NCBI GenBank assembly: GCA_017557475.1
Contig: JAFYYO010000283.1
Coordinates: forward strand, 1-8,270
DNA: 8,270 nucleotides
Direction of reading: 5' to 3'
Origin: Bacteroidaceae bacterium
Lineage (GTDB): Bacteria; Bacteroidota; Bacteroidia; Bacteroidales; Bacteroidaceae
Each line of letters begins with the position of its first letter. Position 1 is the first letter of the stretch. The notes below the pieces were generated by a model that saw only the letters and a list, made by a program, of their open reading frames with translations, ran no database searches and was not told the DNA's origin. Position numbers and translations under genes: made by a program. Positions 1 to 8,270 of this stretch are shown here, one piece after another.

Positions 1-336
1 CGCATCTTCCTTCATTCGATTGATGAGCGTATAGATTTCAGGTGTCTTCTCCTTTGAGAGTTCCATGCCGAAAGCCTCAGAGAAGACCTCGAGGATGTTG
101 CCGGTCGAGGTGTTGGCATCCTTGATGGCTTGCTGACCGCGTTCAGTCTTGCGATGCGTTTTGCCGTATTGATACATGTGGAAGTCCTGCTCGAAAAGGA
201 GCGAACCGAATGCTGGTGGAGGCCCCATGAAGGTCGTGTCGTGCGGTGCTTCTTCCTTTGTCAAGTAATGATTAGACTGCCCATAGGCAATAATAGCGAT
301 GAACAAAAACGCCAAAAGGCTGATAGTTTTTTTCAT
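1..336 (-). CDS. Class A non-specific acid phosphatase (PAP2 superfamily), N-terminal 112 residues, partial
   Basis: This is the 5' part of a gene that runs off the left edge; the reading frame is open to base 1. The peptide starts MKKTISLLAFLFIAIIAYGQ, a typical signal peptide with likely cleavage near AYG/QS, so the enzyme should be exported. The mature part has the N-terminal features of PhoN/PhoC-like class A acid phosphatases: YLTKEEAP (residues 24-31), a PPPAFGS segment (about 39-45), a Y-x-x-G-K-x-x-R-x-T-x-RG-x-x-A stretch (about 56-69), and FSEAFG followed by a TPEIY-x-LI-x-RM-x-EDA region up to the edge. In the family these enzymes release phosphate from many organic phosphomonoesters in the periplasm. 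The catalytic KX6RP, PSGH and SRX5HX3D motifs lie beyond the window, so activity cannot be judged. The start is the only ATG directly before the signal peptide. A promoter core lies 56 nt upstream. The family call is by recognition, not by a search. Confidence 0.85.
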   Translation of the reverse strand, partial: MKKTISLLAFLFIAIIAYGQSNHYLTKEEAPHDTTFMGPPPAFGSLLFEQDFHMYQYGKTHRKTERGQQAIKDANTSTGNILEVFSEAFGMELSKEKTPEIYTLINRMKEDA

Positions 337-392
337 AATGTTATGTTAGTTTGAAGGTTTAGCTCGACGTAAGTCAAAGGTTTTTGCAGATG

Positions 393-400
393 CAAAGGTA
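393..400 (-). promoter_or_regulatory. Bacteroidetes -7 promoter element for the acid phosphatase gene
   Basis: On the minus strand this reads TACCTTTG, an exact match to the TAnnTTTG element recognised by the Bacteroidetes primary sigma factor. It lies 56 nt before the phosphatase ATG. No clean TTTG element is seen at -33; that region is AT-rich repeat. The surrounding 11-mer (TGCAAAGGTAC on the plus strand, 391-401) occurs again at 6321-6331 in front of the small ORF. Confidence 0.65.
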
Positions 401-408
401 CAACAATT

Positions 409-439
409 AATTCATAATTTATAATTCATAATCCATAAT
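409..439. repeat. Short AT-rich direct repeats
   Basis: Three copies of a 10-mer occur: AATTCATAAT at 409-418 and 423-432, and AATCCATAAT at 430-439. They lie just upstream of the phosphatase -7 element, where a -33 element and upstream contacts would be expected. Such AT-rich tandem words are common in Bacteroidales intergenic DNA. They may help DNA melting or act as an UP-like region; this is inference. Confidence 0.6.
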
Positions 440-486
440 TATTGCTTTCAGGCAATTGTTTGTGAGAAAGCTTCCTGTTGTGTCCG

Positions 487-640
487 TCAACTAGGCGTGC
501 CTAGTTGTAAAACATAACGTGCCTAATTCGTCAACTAGCCGTGCCTAGTTGGCAAACTAGGCGTGTTATGTTTGCAATCATAACGTGTAATGATTGCCAA
601 TGACGCGTGTAATGTTTGCGATTATAACGTGGAATGTTTT
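487..640. repeat. Seven-unit 22-bp periodic palindromic array with invariant CGTG core
   Basis: Seven consecutive units of exactly 22 bp each carry CGTG at the same offset: CGTG starts at 496, 518, 540, 562, 584, 606 and 628. Around the core the arms are inverted repeats. Unit 1 is perfect (CAACTAGGC, spacer GT, GCCTAGTTG; 488-507). Unit 3 (531-552) and unit 5 (575-596) each have one mismatch per arm. Arms also pair across the unit borders 3/4 and 4/5, with one mismatch each. The arms come from a few words (CCTAGTTG, TTATGTTTG, TAATGATTG, TAATGTTTG). Phase is lost on both sides: the predicted core positions 474 and 650 lack CGTG. The array sits between the terminator of the cysteine-rich gene and the phosphatase promoter. 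Function is unknown; protein binding on one DNA face every two helical turns, or RNA hairpins, are possible. Confidence 0.85.
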
Positions 641-655
641 CAAACGCACCTAACG

Positions 656-684
656 AAAAAGGGACGCACCTAAGCGCGTCCCTT
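656..684 (-). terminator. Rho-independent terminator of the cysteine-rich surface protein gene
   Basis: Read on the minus strand, AAGGGACGC (684-676) pairs perfectly with GCGTCCCTT (667-659) across an 8-nt loop, and the T run continues to 656. It begins 18 nt after the TAA at 703-705. The loop and left arm contain ACGCACCTAA (664-673, plus strand), which is repeated at 644-653 just outside the stem. Confidence 0.85.
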
Positions 685-702
685 CTGTATAGGAGAGTCC
701 TG

Positions 703-3700
703 TTATTTTTTCAGATACTTCTTGTTTCCTGTAATGACGATGCCCTTGTAGTCAGCACCAACCTTCTGACCAGCTAAGTTGTAAGTGCCCTTGTTAAGGT
801 TATCGTTAGCGTTAACGTTATCTATGCCGTCGATGTAGTCCTGACGTGCAAGCGTTACCCAGCCGGTAACATGATAGTTGCCTGCGTTCACGACGCCGAT
901 GTCCTCAACGAATGTCCTGCCGTCGCTCCCAGGTATGAGTTCGATGCCATCGTTCAGGTCGAGGGCGTGGAAGTTCTGGATTGAAGCCGTACTGCCCTTT
1001 GCCTGCAGCATGGTTTGTGTGCCGTACATGTGGATTGATGGCAGTGCTGCGGCAGATGCCCTGCGTCCCTGCATGCCGCAGTTTTGTCCTATGCAGTTTA
1101 CCGTCAGGTTCACGTCGTCCTTCAGCACGATGTCGTTCCAAGTCACGATGCCGTTGCCGTCAGATGTGATGCTCAGCGAACCGCCGCCCTGGAAGGTAAC
1201 AGTCGAGGCTTCACCTGGAGTTCTCAGAGCCATGCCGACATTGTTGTCGCTGGCAGTGATGGTGTTTTGACCGACGAGGTTGATCTTGAGGTCGGTTGTC
1301 TTTGCAGCGATGCCGCCCACTTCTGTGGCACCAAGAGTGGCATTGTTCAGCGTCAGGGTGTTTGTCTCGGAGACGTAGCTGACCTTGCCGTCGCCTAAGA
1401 CGTCGTGCTTGTTGATGTTGTAGACGTCGGTGCCGGCCACAGTGATGTTGTAGGCAATGGGTGCTTCCTGACTTGTCGTCACCAGGAAGGTTGCCTTGCC
1501 TTTCGTGTAATGATTGTTGGCTTCACTGGTAGCGATGATTGTGGCGGAGCCTTCCTTCAGGATGGTTACCCTGCCCGTCGTGGCATCCACTGTGGCAATG
1601 GTCTCGTCGGAGCTCTTATAGGTGACTGTCAGATTGCCAGGAGTTTTAAGCAACTGTGGAGCCGCTACCGTTGCGCCTACGCTGGCCGTCACAATCTTCT
1701 CTTTGAATGTCAGGCTCGGCACGTTCTTCCTATAGATGGCGCGAACAGTTACGTTGTTGGGCGACATCCATGCCCAGCGGTTGCCATATGTCGGGCTGGA
1801 CGACGGACCCCATCCGCCAGCCCACTCAACGTCGTATTCATCGCGCAACATGTTGCTGGCATCTTCAACGACCTCCCAATGCAGGAAGTCCTTCCTCCAC
1901 TGGTCTTCAGGCTCCAGTCGTATGGGCACGCCGCCGCGCACTTGCAGCTTGCTGCTCGTGTTCGTGTCGAGCACATAGTTGTTTCCGACGCGGGTGCCTG
2001 TCGTGGCCACACCGTCCTCGATGGTCAGCGTGTACTTCTCTTCCGTCTTCCTGACGTTGCAAGTCAGGGATATTTCGGGTGAGGAGAGGTAGATGGTCTC
2101 ACCATTCTCGTCGAGCGATCTTAGATCAAACGTTAAGGCACTTTCATAGTCTTCCACTATATTCTTCGGTGTGATGGTGAGTGTCAAACCCTCGAAGCTC
2201 ACATCTGCCAAGTCGTTTTCCTCAATAGCATAGGTGAGGGTCTGGATGTTGTCGCGGCCTACAGACTTGAAGGTGATGGTCTGCGACGGAGCAGGCTGGC
2301 CATAGGTCCACTCGAAGCGGAGCTTTGTCTTGTCGGGCTTCAATGTATAGTCGGGACCAGTGTAGTCTGTGATGCGAGTCTCAATATGAGTCTCATCGCG
2401 CTCGCAGACGCGCTGCTCCATGCCTTTTATCTTTGTGGTAGCTTCGCGAATGGTCTCCCACTCACCCCATTCGTGGCCGAGAGCTTCTTCTCTCTCGCCC
2501 TTTTGGACAAGCTTGTTGCAGTACTTGCAATAGAGGTTGTCGTCGTGGCCGGCTCTGGTGCAGGTTGGGGGATTCGCAGAGGATTCCCGTCTTTGATAAT
2601 CCGTCCAAATCTTTCCAGGATTTGGGCCGTACAGCTTGTCCTTATCCCACAGACCATGTCTGAGCGGTGTTCTCTCACCCTTGACGGTTTTGCCACAGCG
2701 GTTGCACAAGAAGTCGCCGCTCCAGCCATGCGTTGCGGTGTTCGGTATTCCATTATTATAACCATACTGCCTCCATATCGAACAATACTCTATATCCTCC
2801 GTGCCTTCTATCGGTGTGTCGGGCAGGTCGTGACCGAGGGCTGGGATGCGTGCGCCTGCGGCTAATACCTCGCCACAATCCGAGCAGAGTGTGTCTGGCT
2901 CGTGGCCATAGCCTCCGCAAGTTGGCTCTACGCGCGATCCTCGTTTGGTTCCTCCAGTATGGTTGCACTCCTCACTGTCTGCGACGATGGTGGCAGGACC
3001 GTTGGGCATTATGAAGGTGGTTTGCTTGCTTGTTGCCGATGCGAAATTTATGCGAGGCAAGTCGATGTCGCTTCTGCCACCGTCCCATGCTATATTCGTT
3101 TCGCCTGTCCATCCTGTGCCGTCGTACCACCGCACGAACTTGACAGGCTTGTGGTTGAAGTTGGTGTCCATCATCCTGGCAGACTTCGGATCGAAAGTGA
3201 TGGTAATGGTGACTCCTTGTTGGGCATAAGCAACAGGTATATATGTATATCTGGAACCTGTCTGTATTCGAAACTTAGCTGTGCCGCCTAGTATCATGAT
3301 GGGCCAGGAGCCGTAGGGGAAGTACTGGACTTGATCGTAGCCGCACACTTCGCAGTAGCGTATAAGCTTTCCGGGTTCGCTTTCCGACTTGGCGTCCTTC
3401 GTGCATTCCCACATCGTCCATACATGATTCTCAGTCTTTATCTGGTCGCAGACCTTACATTTAACATGATGTGACTCGGGACCCCATCCGCCCTTCTCTG
3501 GGTCTGGTACATAATGGCCGTTTACGGTGATTTCAATCTCACGGAACGAGTACCAGTCGTGGGTATGCGGCAGTTTGTCCGTCTTTATTGTCTTTGAGTA
3601 TCCGCAAGCAGAGCAGATAAGCTTGTTCTCGCCCATCTTTGTCTCGGTGGCTTCGGTAATGACTTCTGTCTGGTCGAAGTTGTGGTCAACAGCTGGATTG

Positions 3701-5940
3701 GGACTTGCGAGTCCGCAAACGCAGACGAACCAATGCTGGGTGATGCTGTATTTCGCAATGTCGAAGCTGTGAACATGATTCGGGTCAACTTTCGGAATGA
3801 CCTCGGTATTCTTGTAGGAGCAGTCCAAACATGTTTGTTCGCGCAGTCCTGTCTCAGTGGAAGTGGCAGGACGGACAAGTGTCCATTCGCTAAAGCGGTG
3901 CTTGGGAGTATTCTTTACGACGCCGCACTCGCCATAGCAGCAGTTTTCGTGCGTCTCGCTGTCCTTTGCCGTATAGCGTCCGAAGACATGCTGGGCATTA
4001 ACATAGGCTACATTACTTGTTACGCTGCCGTTGGCATTGCTCACGACGCAGTAGTACTTGTGGTAGTTCTGCCTCTCGCACTCGTCGGTAAGGACAAGAG
4101 CCTTCAGCGTGGCAGTCTGTGCACCCTCTGCCTTCCACGAGTCTGTGACCGGTTGGGCAGTGCCAGTGCCGTATTGTTCATACCATTGATAGGAAAGGTT
4201 CTCGCCGCCAGCCTTTACCTTGAAAGTGGCATAGGGGTCATCGGAGTTTGTCCAAGCAGTTGTGTTGGTCTTGCCTGTGTAGTCGGTTGGCTGGATGATG
4301 ATGTAGGGCTTGCCGTCGGCGGAAACTTCATAGTATGGTATGGAAATGATTCCCATCTTATAGTTGCAGACCTCACAATTGACTTGTGCCGTTCCGTTTG
4401 TGTGAGTGGTGGGGTTGGCAGCAGTCAGTGTGACAGGTGTTCCTTCGCTGTGGATGGCCTTGCTCAGGGCAATGCCGCAGTCTTCGCAGACGAGCCAGTG
4501 GGCATTGCTGTCTATTCGCCATGTTGAGCTGACGTTCTGGTGCTCGCAATTCTCATCGTGGTTGCAGAGTTCGAGGCATTGGTCGTCTTCGTAGCACCAG
4601 TGCTCGGCAAATTCGTCGCTTTCGATGCAGAGGTCGTGGTCGCAGCCCACGGACGATGTGTTGTCGGCGCAGCAGTCGAGGCAGAGCTCGCAGATGTCGC
4701 AGCGGTCTTCGCCCTCGTAGCAGTCGCCGCACTGGTCGCAGATGAAGTGGCCGTCGGCATCGTCGTTCTCTGGGCAGACGTTGTGCTCGCAATGCTCTTG
4801 GCAGTCAGGACAGAGTCCGCAGTACTCGCAGAGTTCGCCCTCGTCGAAGCAATTGCCGCAGTCGGGACAGACATGGTCGTCAAAGTCCGGACCATCGGGA
4901 CAGAGTTCGTGTTCGCAATGATAGTCTTCCTGGCAGCTTGCACAAAGTCCGCAATACTCGCACTCCTCATCCTCAGGACATTGCCCACACTCAGGACAGA
5001 GGTGGTCTTCATAGTCGGCGGAAGCTGTGCAGTAGCCGTGTCCGCAGCCTTCCGACTCGCTGTTCTCGTGGCAGCAACTCTCGCAAAGTCCGCAGTCGTC
5101 GCAGAGGTCAAGGCCAGCGCCTTCGGTACACTTGCCACATTGCCCGCATTTCCATTCGTTGTCTTCGCAACAGAAAATGCAGTGGTCGCCGCCATCGGTG
5201 CACCATTGGACTTCGTCGCCAAAGCAATGGCCGCATTCAGGGCAGTGTTCCTCGCTTTCAGCACAGCTTTCGCAAAGTCCGCATTCGGGGCAGATGTCCT
5301 CGTCGCACATAAAACATTCGCGACAATGAATGAGGTCTTCGGCAGCAGCATCTGCCATACAATTGCCACAGATGCCGTGGTCAGCACAGGCGTCGCTTGT
5401 CAGTGCCTCTGTATCTTCGCCATCGATGACGAGACAAATGCCGCACACCGAGCATTGCAGTTCGCTGCAGTCTGTGCAGTGATGCTCTAACATGCCATAC
5501 TCGCAGTCGCACTCCACGGCGCCTTCACCAAATATCTCGTGACAATAGCGGCAAGCCTCCGAGAAGACACCACTTTCGATAAGTTCGTCGGCACAGTCGT
5601 AGCAGATGTATTCGTCTAATTTGTTGTAGATACCTTCGTGATATTCGCCGTTGTCAATGCAATCACTGCAATACTGACAGTGATGCGAACGATAGCAATC
5701 GGGATTCGCGTCTAGTGAACATGAGCCGCAATCGTCGCAGAATAAATCTGCGGCAGCCTCTTCAGCCTCGGCAGAGCTTTCGGCATAGATGGTGTACTCG
5801 GCGCCACACTCGCCGCAAGTGGCTACGGCTTCGCCCCAAGTGTCGGTCCATTCCCAGTCCCAGGCATGGGCATGCAGCAATGGGAACATCGTTATGGCAA
5901 GAGCCACAGTCATTCTCATAAGGGGTTGAAACTTCTTCAT
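703..5940 (-). CDS. Very large secreted cysteine-rich mosaic surface protein (1745 aa), function unknown
   Basis: No named family is recognised for the whole protein. Residues 1-26 form a signal peptide (Lys-Lys start, hydrophobic core, cleavage near AHA/W), followed by a Trp cluster WDWEWTDTW. Residues 42-465 are an acidic cysteine array with 79 Cys. Residues 466-535, 651-715, 720-790, 791-870 and 990-1190 are modules pairing His/Trp with CxxC (for example Cys485/488, 704/707, 776/779, 863/866, 1019/1022, 1079/1082, 1138/1141). An Ig-like fold fits 536-648 (SYQWY...YYCVVSN). InlB-B-repeat-like segments fit 885-988 (F-x-RWYDG...FIMPNGPATIVA) and 1303-1405. A beta-sandwich is likely at 1198-1298, a Big_2-like domain at about 1409-1490, and a beta-helix-like region at 1495-1700. 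The tail at 1717-1745 resembles Bacteroidetes sorting tails. Adhesion or metal binding at the cell surface is inference. The start is set by the signal peptide and the promoter 31 nt upstream. No break in frame is seen. Confidence 0.93.
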   Translation of the reverse strand: MKKFQPLMRMTVALAITMFPLLHAHAWDWEWTDTWGEAVATCGECGAEYTIYAESSAEAEEAAADLFCDDCGSCSLDANPDCYRSHHCQYCSDCIDNGEYHEGIYNKLDEYICYDCADELIESGVFSEACRYCHEIFGEGAVECDCEYGMLEHHCTDCSELQCSVCGICLVIDGEDTEALTSDACADHGICGNCMADAAAEDLIHCRECFMCDEDICPECGLCESCAESEEHCPECGHCFGDEVQWCTDGGDHCIFCCEDNEWKCGQCGKCTEGAGLDLCDDCGLCESCCHENSESEGCGHGYCTASADYEDHLCPECGQCPEDEECEYCGLCASCQEDYHCEHELCPDGPDFDDHVCPDCGNCFDEGELCEYCGLCPDCQEHCEHNVCPENDDADGHFICDQCGDCYEGEDRCDICELCLDCCADNTSSVGCDHDLCIESDEFAEHWCYEDDQCLELCNHDENCEHQNVSSTWRIDSNAHWLVCEDCGIALSKAIHSEGTPVTLTAANPTTHTNGTAQVNCEVCNYKMGIISIPYYEVSADGKPYIIIQPTDYTGKTNTTAWTNSDDPYATFKVKAGGENLSYQWYEQYGTGTAQPVTDSWKAEGAQTATLKALVLTDECERQNYHKYYCVVSNANGSVTSNVAYVNAQHVFGRYTAKDSETHENCCYGECGVVKNTPKHRFSEWTLVRPATSTETGLREQTCLDCSYKNTEVIPKVDPNHVHSFDIAKYSITQHWFVCVCGLASPNPAVDHNFDQTEVITEATETKMGENKLICSACGYSKTIKTDKLPHTHDWYSFREIEITVNGHYVPDPEKGGWGPESHHVKCKVCDQIKTENHVWTMWECTKDAKSESEPGKLIRYCEVCGYDQVQYFPYGSWPIMILGGTAKFRIQTGSRYTYIPVAYAQQGVTITITFDPKSARMMDTNFNHKPVKFVRWYDGTGWTGETNIAWDGGRSDIDLPRINFASATSKQTTFIMPNGPATIVADSEECNHTGGTKRGSRVEPTCGGYGHEPDTLCSDCGEVLAAGARIPALGHDLPDTPIEGTEDIEYCSIWRQYGYNNGIPNTATHGWSGDFLCNRCGKTVKGERTPLRHGLWDKDKLYGPNPGKIWTDYQRRESSANPPTCTRAGHDDNLYCKYCNKLVQKGEREEALGHEWGEWETIREATTKIKGMEQRVCERDETHIETRITDYTGPDYTLKPDKTKLRFEWTYGQPAPSQTITFKSVGRDNIQTLTYAIEENDLADVSFEGLTLTITPKNIVEDYESALTFDLRSLDENGETIYLSSPEISLTCNVRKTEEKYTLTIEDGVATTGTRVGNNYVLDTNTSSKLQVRGGVPIRLEPEDQWRKDFLHWEVVEDASNMLRDEYDVEWAGGWGPSSSPTYGNRWAWMSPNNVTVRAIYRKNVPSLTFKEKIVTASVGATVAAPQLLKTPGNLTVTYKSSDETIATVDATTGRVTILKEGSATIIATSEANNHYTKGKATFLVTTSQEAPIAYNITVAGTDVYNINKHDVLGDGKVSYVSETNTLTLNNATLGATEVGGIAAKTTDLKINLVGQNTITASDNNVGMALRTPGEASTVTFQGGGSLSITSDGNGIVTWNDIVLKDDVNLTVNCIGQNCGMQGRRASAAALPSIHMYGTQTMLQAKGSTASIQNFHALDLNDGIELIPGSDGRTFVEDIGVVNAGNYHVTGWVTLARQDYIDGIDNVNANDNLNKGTYNLAGQKVGADYKGIVITGNKKYLKK
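706..798 (-). other. C-terminal sorting-like tail of the large protein
   Basis: Residues 1715-1745 end in Y-N-L-A-G-Q-K-V, then KGIVI, then K-K-Y-L-K-K at the extreme C-terminus. The same plan (Y-A-L-D-G-R-K-L, KGIFI, KK-I-L-K) ends the protein at 8004-8270. In Bacteroidetes such tails resemble the last strands of type IX secretion (Por) C-terminal signals. Whether this short form directs type IX export is inference; no secretion gene is in the window. Confidence 0.55.
4546..5817 (-). repeat. Coding cysteine array: 79 Cys in 424 residues, 43-residue repeats in its second half
   Basis: This stretch encodes residues 42-465 of the large protein. From residue 206 the pattern C-x2-C-x2-C-x(4-8)-C-x2-C-x2-C-x2-C recurs, with first cysteines at 206, 233 (degenerate), 265, 315, 358 and 401. 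The last three copies are spaced exactly 43 residues apart and add a C-x(3-4)-C or C-x4-C pair (342/347, 384/389, 433/438). Recurrent words are CPECG, CEYCGLC and CDDCGLC. Linkers are rich in Asp and Glu, with His before many cysteines. Residues 42-200 contain the same clusters in less regular form. Zinc-ribbon-like knuckles use paired CxxC, so metal binding is plausible; disulfide-linked folding is the alternative. The DNA copies have diverged more than the cysteine pattern. Confidence 0.9.
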
Positions 5941-5971
5941 AGTCTATAGTTATTTATTAATAATGTGTGTG

Positions 5972-6002
5972 CAAAGTTATAAATTTCTGTTCACAAAGAC
6001 AA
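5972..6002 (-). promoter_or_regulatory. Promoter of the large cysteine-rich protein gene
   Basis: The minus strand reads TAACTTTG at 5979-5972, an exact TAnnTTTG -7 element, 31 nt before the ATG at 5940. A TTG at 6002-6000 sits 20 bp upstream and is the best -33 candidate; a TTTG at 5997-5994 is only 14 bp away. The element lies between the small ORF and the large gene, and the -33 candidates fall at the 3' end of the small ORF. The leader before the ATG is A/T-rich with no Shine-Dalgarno sequence, as is usual in this phylum. Confidence 0.65.
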
Positions 6003-6164
6003 GCGTTCTTGAATCTTTTTGTCTATCATTTGCTCCAGTTTGGGCTCTATCTGCTTCCACTTCTTCTCGAGAAGCCTGTCCACCAGTGCCTCTTGCTCAT
6101 CGAGGAAGCCGAGATACTCAGCTGCAAACCTGTGAGCCGCCTTTTGCTTTTCAGATAGAACCAT
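5991..6164 (-). CDS. Small charged, probably helical protein (57 aa), hypothetical
   Basis: An ATG at 6164 opens a 57-codon frame ending in TGA at 5991-5993. The peptide starts MVLSEKQKAAHRFAAEYLG and ends IQERLSL. It has no signal peptide or membrane segment, is dense in Lys, Glu, Arg and Gln, and shows hydrophobic residues at roughly 3-4 residue spacing (EYLGFLDEQEALVDRLLEKKW, about residues 16-36, then IEPKLEQMIDKKIQERL), so one or two amphipathic helices or a coiled coil are likely. Codon choice (GAG, AAG, CTC, CTT) resembles the neighbours. It ends 50 nt before the large gene; the large gene's -7 element lies in that gap. It could be read from the promoter core at 6323-6330, about 160 nt upstream. 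I recognise no family. Alternatives are a chance ORF or the coding part of a leader RNA; the biased composition favours a real small gene. Confidence 0.5.
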   Translation of the reverse strand: MVLSEKQKAAHRFAAEYLGFLDEQEALVDRLLEKKWKQIEPKLEQMIDKKIQERLSL

Positions 6165-6172
6165 ATTTTATT

Positions 6173-6208
6173 AGTAGTTAAGGGAGTTAAAGTAGTTAAG
6201 GGAGTTAA
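6173..6208. repeat. Perfect 18-bp tandem duplication built of 9-mers
   Basis: AGTAGTTAAGGGAGTTAA occurs twice head to tail at 6173-6190 and 6191-6208 without mismatch. Each copy is two related 9-mers (AGTAGTTAA, GGGAGTTAA). It begins 9 bp upstream of the small ORF's ATG and would lie in its leader. It is inversely related to the 9-mer run at 6264-6299. Confidence 0.85.
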
Positions 6209-6263
6209 GGACATTACAATTCTTCGTTGAGAACTGCCAATTTGAGCGAGCAAGACTATCGTC

Positions 6264-6299
6264 TTTAACTCCTTTATCTCCTTTTACTCCTTTTACTCC
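6264..6299. repeat. Four tandem 9-mers, inverted relative to the 6173-6208 repeats
   Basis: TTTAACTCC, TTTATCTCC, TTTTACTCC and TTTTACTCC follow one another at 6264-6299. Their reverse complement (GGAGTTAAA-like) matches the 9-mers at 6173-6208, so the two 36-bp runs form an imperfect inverted repeat around a 55-bp centre. A transcript from the 6323-6330 promoter could fold into a long hairpin ahead of the small ORF. Short 9-bp satellites of this kind occur in Bacteroidales spacers. Confidence 0.75.
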
Positions 6300-6322
6300 C
6301 ATTTATTCTTTTTTTTCTGCTG

Positions 6323-6330
6323 CAAAGGTA
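6323..6330 (-). promoter_or_regulatory. Bacteroidetes -7 promoter element upstream of the small ORF
   Basis: The minus strand reads TACCTTTG, matching TAnnTTTG, within the 11-mer TGCAAAGGTAC that also precedes the phosphatase gene. No convincing -33 TTTG is seen. Any transcript would have a leader of about 150 nt, holding both 9-mer repeat runs, before the ATG at 6164. Confidence 0.55.
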
Positions 6331-6394
6331 CGAAGGTTTTGTAGAAGGTCGGTTGATAAAATCTTCCAAAATAGTTGTTATTTTCTTCCAAAAA

Positions 6395-6424
6395 CGAAAA
6401 AAGCGAGCCCGAAAGCCCGCTTTT
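6395..6424 (-). terminator. Rho-independent terminator of the C69 dipeptidase gene
   Basis: On the minus strand AAAAGCGGGC (6424-6415) pairs with GCTCGCTTTT (6408-6399), with one G-T wobble and a 6-nt loop, followed by T residues to 6397. It starts 8 nt past the TAA at 6433-6435 and separates the dipeptidase transcript from the small ORF promoter. Confidence 0.85.
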
Positions 6425-6432
6425 CAGCATCG

Positions 6433-8004
6433 TTAGAAGCCCGACCAGAACTGCCGCCAGTATTTCTTAGCTAGTTCATCCCAGCGTCCGATGGTGGCAT
6501 TGAAGAAGTCTGCGGTGTAGCCATTGAGGAATTCAGTCCTTTTCTTCTCGTCTGTGTTCCACCAAGTCTGCTCCACGAAGGCTTGTTCGCGATGGGCCTT
6601 ATCCCAGAAATATTGCTGAGCTTTCTGTATCGATTCGCGCGTTTGTCCCCATTTCATCGAGGAAATTCGGTTGGCTTCGCGATAATGCCAAAGTGCCGCA
6701 TCTTCTCTTTTCCTATGCTGACCGCAGACGCCAAGCATCATAGGCAACTCGGTATTGCCAGCGAAGATGGGGAAGCGGGGAGACTGTCCTGGATTATCAA
6801 GCGCAATCCAAGCTACTCCGCCTATCTCGTCGGGCATCCACGAACGCAGCTGAATGACTGTGCTATAAGCGCACCAAGACACGCTGACTGTGCGGATGTT
6901 CGCCATCGTGGAGTCGTTCAGGAGGCCTGCATAGCGGCGAATTTCGTCTGGACGCATCCAAGGATTGCTTATCAAAGGCTTTCCTCCTTTCAACTTCACC
7001 TCGCCGTTTCCCTTCGAAAGCGAGTCGATTTTGCACGAAAGACTCAGGTCCGTTCCCTCATAATAGGAGCCGAGAAGTTTCGAAACTGTCTCGACAGAAA
7101 CCTTCTCTTTTGGTTTCACCGAGAGAGGTAATTCGCCCATTTCATCGGTAAAATTGGCCTCGGGAGCCAACTGCTGCATGATGAAAAGTTCACGAACGCT
7201 GTAGTTTTTCGGTTCGTTGAAATAATTGCCGCCCGAGTAAGCTTTCCAGAATGAGAATTCCTCCTTGCCGTCCCAGAGTTTCAACTGTTTTGCGACGGAG
7301 AAGACGTTGTCCGACGCCATGAAATGATCCGTATCGCTCAGGTCGATTTTACCTATTCTGCAGATGTTCGCGCTGACCGCAACTTCGTCATCAGGAATGC
7401 GTTGAGCAGCCCAGACACCGCCTATCTGCTTCGGTCCTTCACCGAAAACCTCGAATATCCACACTTCCTTCTGGTCGGCAATGGTAAGGCATTCGCCACT
7501 GTCTCCGTAGCCGTACTGCTTGATGAGGCTGCCCATGAGACGGATTGCTTGACGGGCCGTCGTGCAACGTTGCATGGCAACTTTTTGAAGCTCCTCAATC
7601 ATAAAGAGTCCTTTCTCGTTTTGCAGGGTGTCTCGACCGCTGATAGTCGTCTCTCCCATCGCAAGTTGCTTCTCGTTCAAGCAAGGATAAGCCGTATTGA
7701 GGAAGCGGTAAGTATGGCGAACTTGAGGTATCGTGCCTCTTTCCTTGACGCCGCTCATGTCCTTCGAATGCTCGGTATGCATCGTCCCCTCGTATATGCT
7801 CATGATGGTGTCGCGAGGGTAATCCTTGGCAGGCTCGATGCTCATCCAGGTCCGATACCACGAGTCGCAAGTGTGGCTGGTCATAACCGAGCCATCGACA
7901 GATGCGTTCTTGCCCACCATAATACTGGTGCAGGCGTCTCTTTCAGTTTGTGCCGAGCAGAAACAAGCCCAGCCGAATATAGCGAAAAGTGCTAAATGTC
8001 TCAT
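6433..8004 (-). CDS. Secreted C69-family dipeptidase (523 aa)
   Basis: Peptidase family C69 enzymes are Ntn hydrolases that cleave dipeptides after autoprocessing exposes an N-terminal catalytic cysteine. Here a signal peptide (residues 1-18, cleavage near CSA/Q) and a few pro-residues precede DACTSIMVGKNASVDGSVMT. Cys25 is therefore the expected nucleophile, in the usual family context. Further family-like segments are SHTCDSWYRTW (43-53), EVWIFEVFGEG (180-190), the W-A-A-Q-R-IPDDEVAVSANICRI block (198-217), SDTDHFMASDN (223-233), NPWMRPDEIRRYAGL (347-361) and GGVAWIALDNPGQSPRFPIFAG (395-416). The length of 523 is normal for Bacteroidetes members. The start is fixed by the signal peptide; its ATG shares a base with the previous gene's TAA (TAATG), which suggests translational coupling. 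The likely role is degradation of small peptides in the periplasm. A terminator follows directly. The frame is intact. Confidence 0.93.
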   Translation of the reverse strand: MRHLALFAIFGWACFCSAQTERDACTSIMVGKNASVDGSVMTSHTCDSWYRTWMSIEPAKDYPRDTIMSIYEGTMHTEHSKDMSGVKERGTIPQVRHTYRFLNTAYPCLNEKQLAMGETTISGRDTLQNEKGLFMIEELQKVAMQRCTTARQAIRLMGSLIKQYGYGDSGECLTIADQKEVWIFEVFGEGPKQIGGVWAAQRIPDDEVAVSANICRIGKIDLSDTDHFMASDNVFSVAKQLKLWDGKEEFSFWKAYSGGNYFNEPKNYSVRELFIMQQLAPEANFTDEMGELPLSVKPKEKVSVETVSKLLGSYYEGTDLSLSCKIDSLSKGNGEVKLKGGKPLISNPWMRPDEIRRYAGLLNDSTMANIRTVSVSWCAYSTVIQLRSWMPDEIGGVAWIALDNPGQSPRFPIFAGNTELPMMLGVCGQHRKREDAALWHYREANRISSMKWGQTRESIQKAQQYFWDKAHREQAFVEQTWWNTDEKKRTEFLNGYTADFFNATIGRWDELAKKYWRQFWSGF

Positions 8005-8270
8005 TATTTTAGTATTTTCTTTCCATCATGAATGAATATCCCCTTTGAAGGCTCACCAGTCAGTTTGCGGCCATCGAGAGCGTAGTAGTCTGTGACATTA
8101 AGGTCCTTAAGGTCTCTAAGGACATTTGAATCGATGCCGGTTATCTCGTCGTCGGAGATGACGGGATGCAGGGTGATGCGGTCGAAGTTAGGTGCCCAAA
8201 GGTCATCATACGCTTGAATGGTGATGGTATTCCTAGAGCCCTCTTTCAAGGTGACGGGTATCATCTTCCA
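8004..8270 (-). CDS. C-terminal 88 residues of a secreted protein with probable CBM6/35-like module, partial
   Basis: The frame is open to the right edge, so only the 3' end is present and the start lies outside. The visible part begins WKMIPVTLKEGSRNTITIQA and continues to W-A-P-N-F-D-R-I-T-L-HPV. That order (V-x-V-x-L-K-x-G-x-N-T-I-x-I, then W-x-PN-x-D-x-I-x-L) is the usual last-strand pattern of family 6/35 carbohydrate-binding modules, often attached to glycoside hydrolases. The end, Y-A-L-D-G-R-K-L with KGIFI and KK-I-L-K, is the same kind of tail as on the large protein. The catalytic part, if any, is not visible. The TAA overlaps the dipeptidase ATG by one base, so the two genes are very probably one operon. 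The carbohydrate-binding call is recognition of a short segment and is moderately sure. Confidence 0.7.
   Translation of the reverse strand, partial: WKMIPVTLKEGSRNTITIQAYDDLWAPNFDRITLHPVISDDEITGIDSNVLRDLKDLNVTDYYALDGRKLTGEPSKGIFIHDGKKILK

Follow-up and report, generated by a model that had tools for sequence, protein, structure and literature searches.

A Cys- and His-rich domain of an exported Bacteroidaceae protein as a putative extracellular array of zinc sites

How an exported bacterial protein can accommodate Cys at almost one residue in five is the question raised by an 8,270-nucleotide stretch of a Bacteroidaceae bacterium (contig JAFYYO010000283.1, positions 1-8,270; assembly GCA_017557475.1), here called the window. 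It encodes a long protein with an export leader, the N-terminal part of which is a Cys/His-rich domain (Table 1). We consider it likely, at a probability of roughly 0.7, that this domain is stapled by zinc in place of disulfides and lies at the outer end of a surface protein; we infer zinc as the metal, the number of ions, export by the type IX secretion system (T9SS), and the position at the cell surface.

The segment 4546-5817 corresponds exactly to residues 42-465 of the minus-strand open reading frame 703-5940, and our recount returned 79 Cys in 424 residues (18.6%), the same as in a preliminary description of this DNA, which had given about 19%. The clustering of these residues in CxxCxxC, also claimed there, was compared with 2000 composition-preserving shuffles. 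CxxC was observed 39 times (mean of the shuffles 14.5, maximum 25), CxxCxxC 19 times (mean 2.6, maximum 11), and CxxCGxCxxC four times (mean 0.04, maximum 2), all of them above the maximum reached by chance. The Cys-rich domain is strongly acidic (D+E 114, K+R 7, pI about 4.05), and 34 further Cys occur in the 1280 residues after residue 465. The leader, MKKFQPLMRMTVALAITMFPLLHAHA, looks by eye like a Sec signal peptide; the preliminary description, too, had seen a signal peptide there.

The same description recognized three repeats, starting at residues 315, 358 and 401 with a constant spacing of 43 residues, and degenerate earlier copies at 206, 233 and 265. The three starts and their spacing were indeed found, and the copies at 206 and 233 are partial units only; the copy at 265, located 50 residues before 315, is nonetheless a full unit, so that the full units number four. 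All four obey one strict search pattern, namely C-x2-C...C...C-x2-C-x2-C-x2-C...C-x-H-x2-C...H, and each contains 12 Cys/His, the lengths by this pattern being 49, 42, 41 and 47 residues for units 1 to 4. Beside the fourth knuckle, units 2 and 3 have a His and units 1 and 4 a second Cys. Of the 147 proteins that were fetched, 79 have exactly four units, far more than have any other number.

Conservation was studied in an alignment of 74 chosen rows, comprising the window protein, nine of 12 related loci (L001-L012) from a genome-contig scan, and 64 of the 120 listed relatives that were examined out of 246 retrieved at E ≤ 0.001 by a protein search with residues 27-500. This selection omits many fragments and near-copies, L011 and P0045 are a duplicate in the tree, and an earlier alignment of 64 rows served as a first look only. 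Up to residue 497, Cys or His occupies at least 75% of the filled rows in 101 columns; 81 of these ligand columns are mostly Cys, and the window's own sequence has 80 Cys and 21 His in them. Many His are as conserved as Cys, the near-invariant ones being H87, 205, 253, 313, 356, 398, 447, 461, 467, 481 and 497, and only five residues other than Cys and His reach 90%. Since the invariant residues are almost all ligands, they speak for the fold and not for a binding partner. Of the 74 rows, 64 share the most frequent ligand span within unit 1, 54 within unit 2, 41 within unit 3 and 52 within unit 4.

Cys and His were also found to replace one another. Such exchange occurs in 17 of the 101 columns, most clearly at 188 (35 Cys, 38 His), 101 (51 and 16) and 239 (60 and 10), and His is the commonest substitute for Cys, accounting for 42 of the 191 substituted cells of 83 Cys columns, against a share of 1.6% expected from BLOSUM62, and occurring in 12 of these columns. 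Residues 101 and 104 (window 5629-5640) are both Cys in 51 of 74 rows, while 16 rows, including the window, have His101 together with a non-ligand at 104.

The losses of ligands were likewise structured. In a clade of 12 rows, 34 of the 38 substitution losses fell on C68, C144, H154 and C169 (position 154 in 12 rows, 169 in 10, 68 in 7 and 144 in 5), and in a clade of three rows C217, C220, H232 and C239 were lost in all three, along with C258, C407 and C424. Among the other 59 rows, positions 68 and 144 were never lost by substitution, and 154, 169, 217, 220, 232 and 239 were lost in 3, 4, 2, 7, 3 and 1 rows, respectively. This co-loss suggests two four-ligand sites, C68/C144/H154/C169 and C217/C220/H232/C239. 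Because the losses concentrate on sets of three Cys and one His, they argue for zinc sites and not for disulfides, in which Cys would be lost in pairs and His would not be required.

In the AlphaFold2 model, the mean predicted local distance difference test (pLDDT) score was 90.7 for residues 27-500 and 88.0 for residues 299-449. When compared by Foldseek, 11 of the first 13 rows were zinc-finger proteins, as judged in part by title; the lists hold the best 50 of 75 rows and, in another search, the best 50 of 197. Zinc fingers of the LIM, RING, PHD and FYVE types, which share with this domain the paired CxxC knuckles and the Cys/His ligands, stood at the top of the Foldseek and VIA-align lists, the latter not excluding structures missing from them. 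Nevertheless, the best fold match in the PDB had an E value of 0.12, which is without significance, as is the best PDB sequence match of the family profile to the Cys-rich part, a double-zinc-ribbon protein with an E value of 0.03. In the viral fold library, two matches at E ≤ 0.001 were uncharacterized giant-virus proteins with TM-scores of 0.10. At E ≤ 1, no Pfam family, zinc-finger and EGF/TNFR-type profiles included, matched residues 27-500 or 299-449, and NCBIfam gave no match for the entire 1745-residue protein; no protease domain was found by either. A match to a known disulfide-rich family, which would have spoken against metal binding, was thus looked for in Pfam and not found at this threshold, and the statement that no named family fits the domain stands for the collections searched. 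We also found no description of it in the open-access literature searched, judged by title.

A relationship did emerge further downstream. The profile built from the 74-row alignment matched the C-terminal part of an immunoglobulin A (IgA) protease in the PDB, entry 9qa6 (E 2.9e-19), with two strong stretches (1.4e-8 and 1.3e-8) that fall at about residues 467-536 and 721-797 of the window protein; single-sequence searches with the whole protein at E ≤ 1 and with residues 461 onward at E ≤ 10 missed this entry. Entry 9qa6 is the IgA protease of Thomasclavelia ramosa, for which the authors report 24 Cys, an absence of disulfides from structures and models alike, and a maximum of eight zinc sites, identified or predicted (PMC12237041). 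In that report, the sites of its zinc-binding domains (ZBDs) ZBD1 and ZBD2 are predicted to consist of two His and two Cys or of three Cys and one His, on three-stranded sheets (PMC12237041). The two proteins share the features of a surface-type protein of a gut anaerobe with Cys/His sites in an exported chain without disulfides, in addition to the sequence homology of the two modules downstream of the Cys-rich domain. However, the predicted T. ramosa sites are not CxxCxxC repeats, and the N-terminal Cys-rich domain matches nothing in 9qa6. Since the profile matches 9qa6 there, the downstream body is, on sequence grounds, to be placed with the IgA-protease ZBD modules, whereas the N-terminal domain has no counterpart among them.

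The picture that we propose is as follows. Residues 42-500 would be an array of small zinc fingers, each combining paired CxxC knuckles with a short helix and a CxHxxC loop, with about three zinc ions per repeat unit and about 25 per domain, the latter because the 101 ligand columns are divided by four. The chain would be exported unfolded by Sec and then bind zinc outside the cytoplasm instead of forming disulfides, and the zinc would staple it into a head that is rigid, acidic and elongated. This head would be carried outward on a long stretch of further zinc-ribbon-like and Ig-like modules, and the protein would be fixed to the cell by a C-terminal signal, in Bacteroidota probably one for type IX secretion, so that the head becomes the distal tip. 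Of the three readings offered by the preliminary description, namely a surface metal store, a metal-stiffened stalk and an oxidized disulfide ladder, the metal-stiffened structure is the one best borne out; ‘stalk’, however, should give way to tip as the likelier arrangement, because the domain lies at the N-terminus and the anchor-like parts at the C-terminus. We think that the tip binds a partner or a surface in the gut or rumen, and this is the least certain part of the proposal.

A disulfide ladder, the kind of oxidized Cys-rich stalk known from EGF- or TNFR-like proteins of eukaryotes, would agree with the exported location and the abundant Cys, and a megalin chain does occur among the Foldseek rows. 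It is opposed by the near-invariant His, the Cys/His exchange, the losses on three Cys and one His, and the T. ramosa protease, which has the related modules and showed no disulfides in its structures or models. The machinery for thiol oxidation was searched in related genomes, the window's own genome not being among them. DSBA was found in none of 13 (control positive in 8 of 14 genomes), and DsbB in none of four (control positive in 6 of 14), other thiol oxidases not being searched. VKOR was absent from 12 of the 13 (control positive in 3 of 14); its one occurrence, which favors the ladder, lies at G692:C59:7744-8109, within a 540-residue frame. Although single absences are weak, the agreement of 13 genomes on the absence of DSBA is stronger, and we regard the disulfide ladder as highly improbable. 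Several points do weigh against the zinc-stapled domain. At least three of the 13 genomes (L002, L003 and L005, by title) are metagenome assemblies, and completeness is not given for any of the 13. The share of His among the Cys substitutes ignores relatedness, and 26 of its 42 cells come from two columns. The two clades were chosen after the losses had been seen, and each may represent one event. Finally, all four of C68, C144, H154 and C169 are gone in only two of the 12 rows (four counting gaps), and this scarcity of complete four-ligand loss in the larger clade slightly lowers our confidence.

The remaining alternatives accept the metal but give it another role or identity. As a store or scavenger, the domain would be a surface metallothionein-like sponge, capturing zinc or other soft metals for uptake or protection, and its ligand density, its acidity and the surface position inferred from the tails are in keeping with this. 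Metallothioneins, however, are short intracellular Cys-rich chains; the likeness to them is the very high Cys density, whereas the present domain is long, belongs to an exported protein, has His ligands and a regular repeat geometry, and occurs in relatives with surface-type C-terminal parts. The predominance of four units fits a fold better than a store, the ligand spans within the units are largely retained, and the high pLDDT likewise predicts a defined fold and not a loose sponge. Inspection by eye of the L001-L012 contexts revealed no neighbor common to all, no search being aimed at metal-transport families, and overall a store seems unlikely. A redox-active surface array, either iron-thiolate (rubredoxin-like) or of mixed metals, is suggested by the CPxCG knuckles and by a short relative, P0140, that ends in a rubredoxin-like domain (PF21349, E 1.7e-11). 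Rubredoxin sites are Fe(Cys)4, unlike the many sites that must include His here; inspection of the neighborhoods by eye showed no electron-transfer gene, no family search being aimed at one. There would seem to be little chance that such an array is the answer.

The Cys/His-rich domain was found in 12 of 139 genomes of the genus, two of 201 of the family and one of 395 of the phylum, in samples drawn around one related genome that is counted each time, and one genome contains four copies. The 12 loci are titled as metagenome-assembled genomes (MAGs) of Bacteroidaceae, Prevotella, Prevotellaceae or Bacteroidales, several from the gut of buffalo, goat, roe deer or yak. Among the matches listed, the named relatives include Bacteroidaceae MAGs, and those bearing S-layer (SLH) domains include Hominicoprocola as well as an Eubacteriales bacterium. 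A search for a stand-alone small version yielded 26 matches at E ≤ 1e-6, of which many lie on short contigs; one version, P0132, is shorter and bears SLH. PF26918 occurs on many relatives; we do not think that it is the Cys/His-rich domain, because it is not listed for the two nearest, P0002 and P0003. A phage or plasmid origin received no support: six exact peptide patterns were unmatched in viral contigs (the phage collection was not searched), and plasmids gave no tblastn match at E ≤ 1e-5.

When 20 relatives were compared with the window protein, 12 gave a single continuous alignment that starts at or before residue 52 and extends past 1400. The alignments of P0085 and P0090 cover 68-1363 and 65-1179, respectively, and six distant relatives match piecemeal. 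The C-terminal parts of the relatives differ, being a window-type tail, dockerin, SLH, domains 2 and 3 of elongation factor Tu (EF-Tu), or a sortase-like end (P0090, by eye). The tail of the window protein, YNLAGQKVGADYKGIVITGNKKYLKK, resembles a type IX sorting signal; its pattern also closes three other proteins in the related loci, of which two have a leader by eye, and the T9SS sortase NF033707 scored over the cut-off in all four related genomes searched and in none of 14 control genomes. Differences from type IX cargo are that NCBIfam gave no sorting-tail match for the window protein (E ≤ 1) or for the four Bacteroidota-type relatives P0025, P0036, P0008 and P0022 (E ≤ 10), and that many relatives have SLH, dockerin or other ends instead. 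Among the matches listed, P0038, P0046 and nine other relatives end in EF-Tu domains 2 and 3, in P0046 after a dockerin (PF03144, E 2.8e-10; PF03143, E 1.3e-10), an ending that would not be expected of a surface protein.

A quick tree was built from residues 27-500. On it, one change separates SLH and sortase-type from Bacteroidota-type and EF-Tu tails, a count that covers 46 of the 74 rows, the 28 with dockerin or unclassified tails being left out; with all six tail labels counted, 15 changes are needed. A pair of SLH rows adjoins the clade holding the Bacteroidota-type rows, with Shimodaira-Hasegawa-like approximate likelihood ratio test (SH-aLRT) values of 83 for the clade and 99 for both together. 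The root is the midpoint, the phylum is mostly inferred from tails, and the L rows were taken to be Bacteroidota-type without test, L004 and L005 (dockerin) excepted; in L002 the contig ends before the tail is complete, and the L007 tail does not match the pattern. A core of about 1400 residues with different C-terminal anchors suggests transfer between phyla, and the tree suits one such transfer, probably from Bacillota. In its full extent the proposal is tentative, and we place it somewhat short of even odds: an undescribed extracellular array with about 25 zinc sites per chain would replace disulfides in surface proteins of gut and rumen anaerobes, and an ectodomain of about 1400 residues would have passed once from Bacillota to one Bacteroidales lineage, where it was refitted with that lineage's own tail while a common recognition function of the tip was kept.

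Table 1. Features of the window, with positions in nucleotides
Feature	Residues	Position	Strand	Basis
Whole gene, 1745-residue protein with export leader		703..5940 (including stop codon)	(-)	
Signal peptide	1-26	5863..5940	(-)	By eye
Cys/His-rich domain	42-500	4441..5817	(-)	101 conserved Cys/His columns; AlphaFold pLDDT 90.7 (residues 27-500)
Irregular N-terminal part of the Cys/His-rich domain	42-258	5167..5817	(-)	Two putative four-ligand sites from co-loss
Repeat unit 1	265-313	5002..5148	(-)	Strict search pattern
Repeat unit 2	315-356	4873..4998	(-)	Strict search pattern
Repeat unit 3	358-398	4747..4869	(-)	Strict search pattern
Repeat unit 4	401-447	4600..4740	(-)	Strict search pattern
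First IgA-protease-ZBD-like module (ZBDs as predicted in T. ramosa)	~467-536	4333..4542	(-)	Family profile against PDB 9qa6, mapped by eye
Second IgA-protease-ZBD-like module	~721-797	3550..3780	(-)	Family profile against PDB 9qa6, mapped by eye
Big_2 Ig-like domain	1407-1479	1504..1722	(-)	Pfam PF02368, E 5e-10
C-terminal tail, type IX-like sorting signal		706..783	(-)	Same pattern ends three further proteins in the related loci
C69-family peptidase, upstream of the main gene		6433-8004	(-)	E 3.5e-59

The C69 peptidase is also located upstream in the related loci L002, L003 and L006, whereas L001 and L010 have another gene context in common and L004 and L005 a third, as seen by eye in the open reading frames of L001-L012; no operon partner is claimed. 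At the two ends of the window, 8004-8270 (minus strand) encodes the end of another protein, whose tail, ALDGRKLTGEPSKGIFIHDGKKILK, is like the sorting tail of the main protein, and 1-336 (minus strand) encodes the start of a protein like the acid phosphatase PhoC, truncated at the edge of the window (E 2.5e-21, far below the curated cut-off).

Zinc fingers are mostly regarded as parts of intracellular proteins, and anaerobes, by a rule for which a literature search gave no source, keep Cys out of their exported proteins. The present domain is without a model in the copies of Pfam and NCBIfam that were searched, despite 246 relatives in one protein search, and a conserved exported domain with about 100 Cys/His ligands offers a directly testable protein. 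If the proposal is true, it would account for an apparent exception to that rule, and it would mean that in large surface structures anaerobes rely on zinc for the stability that aerobes obtain from disulfides.

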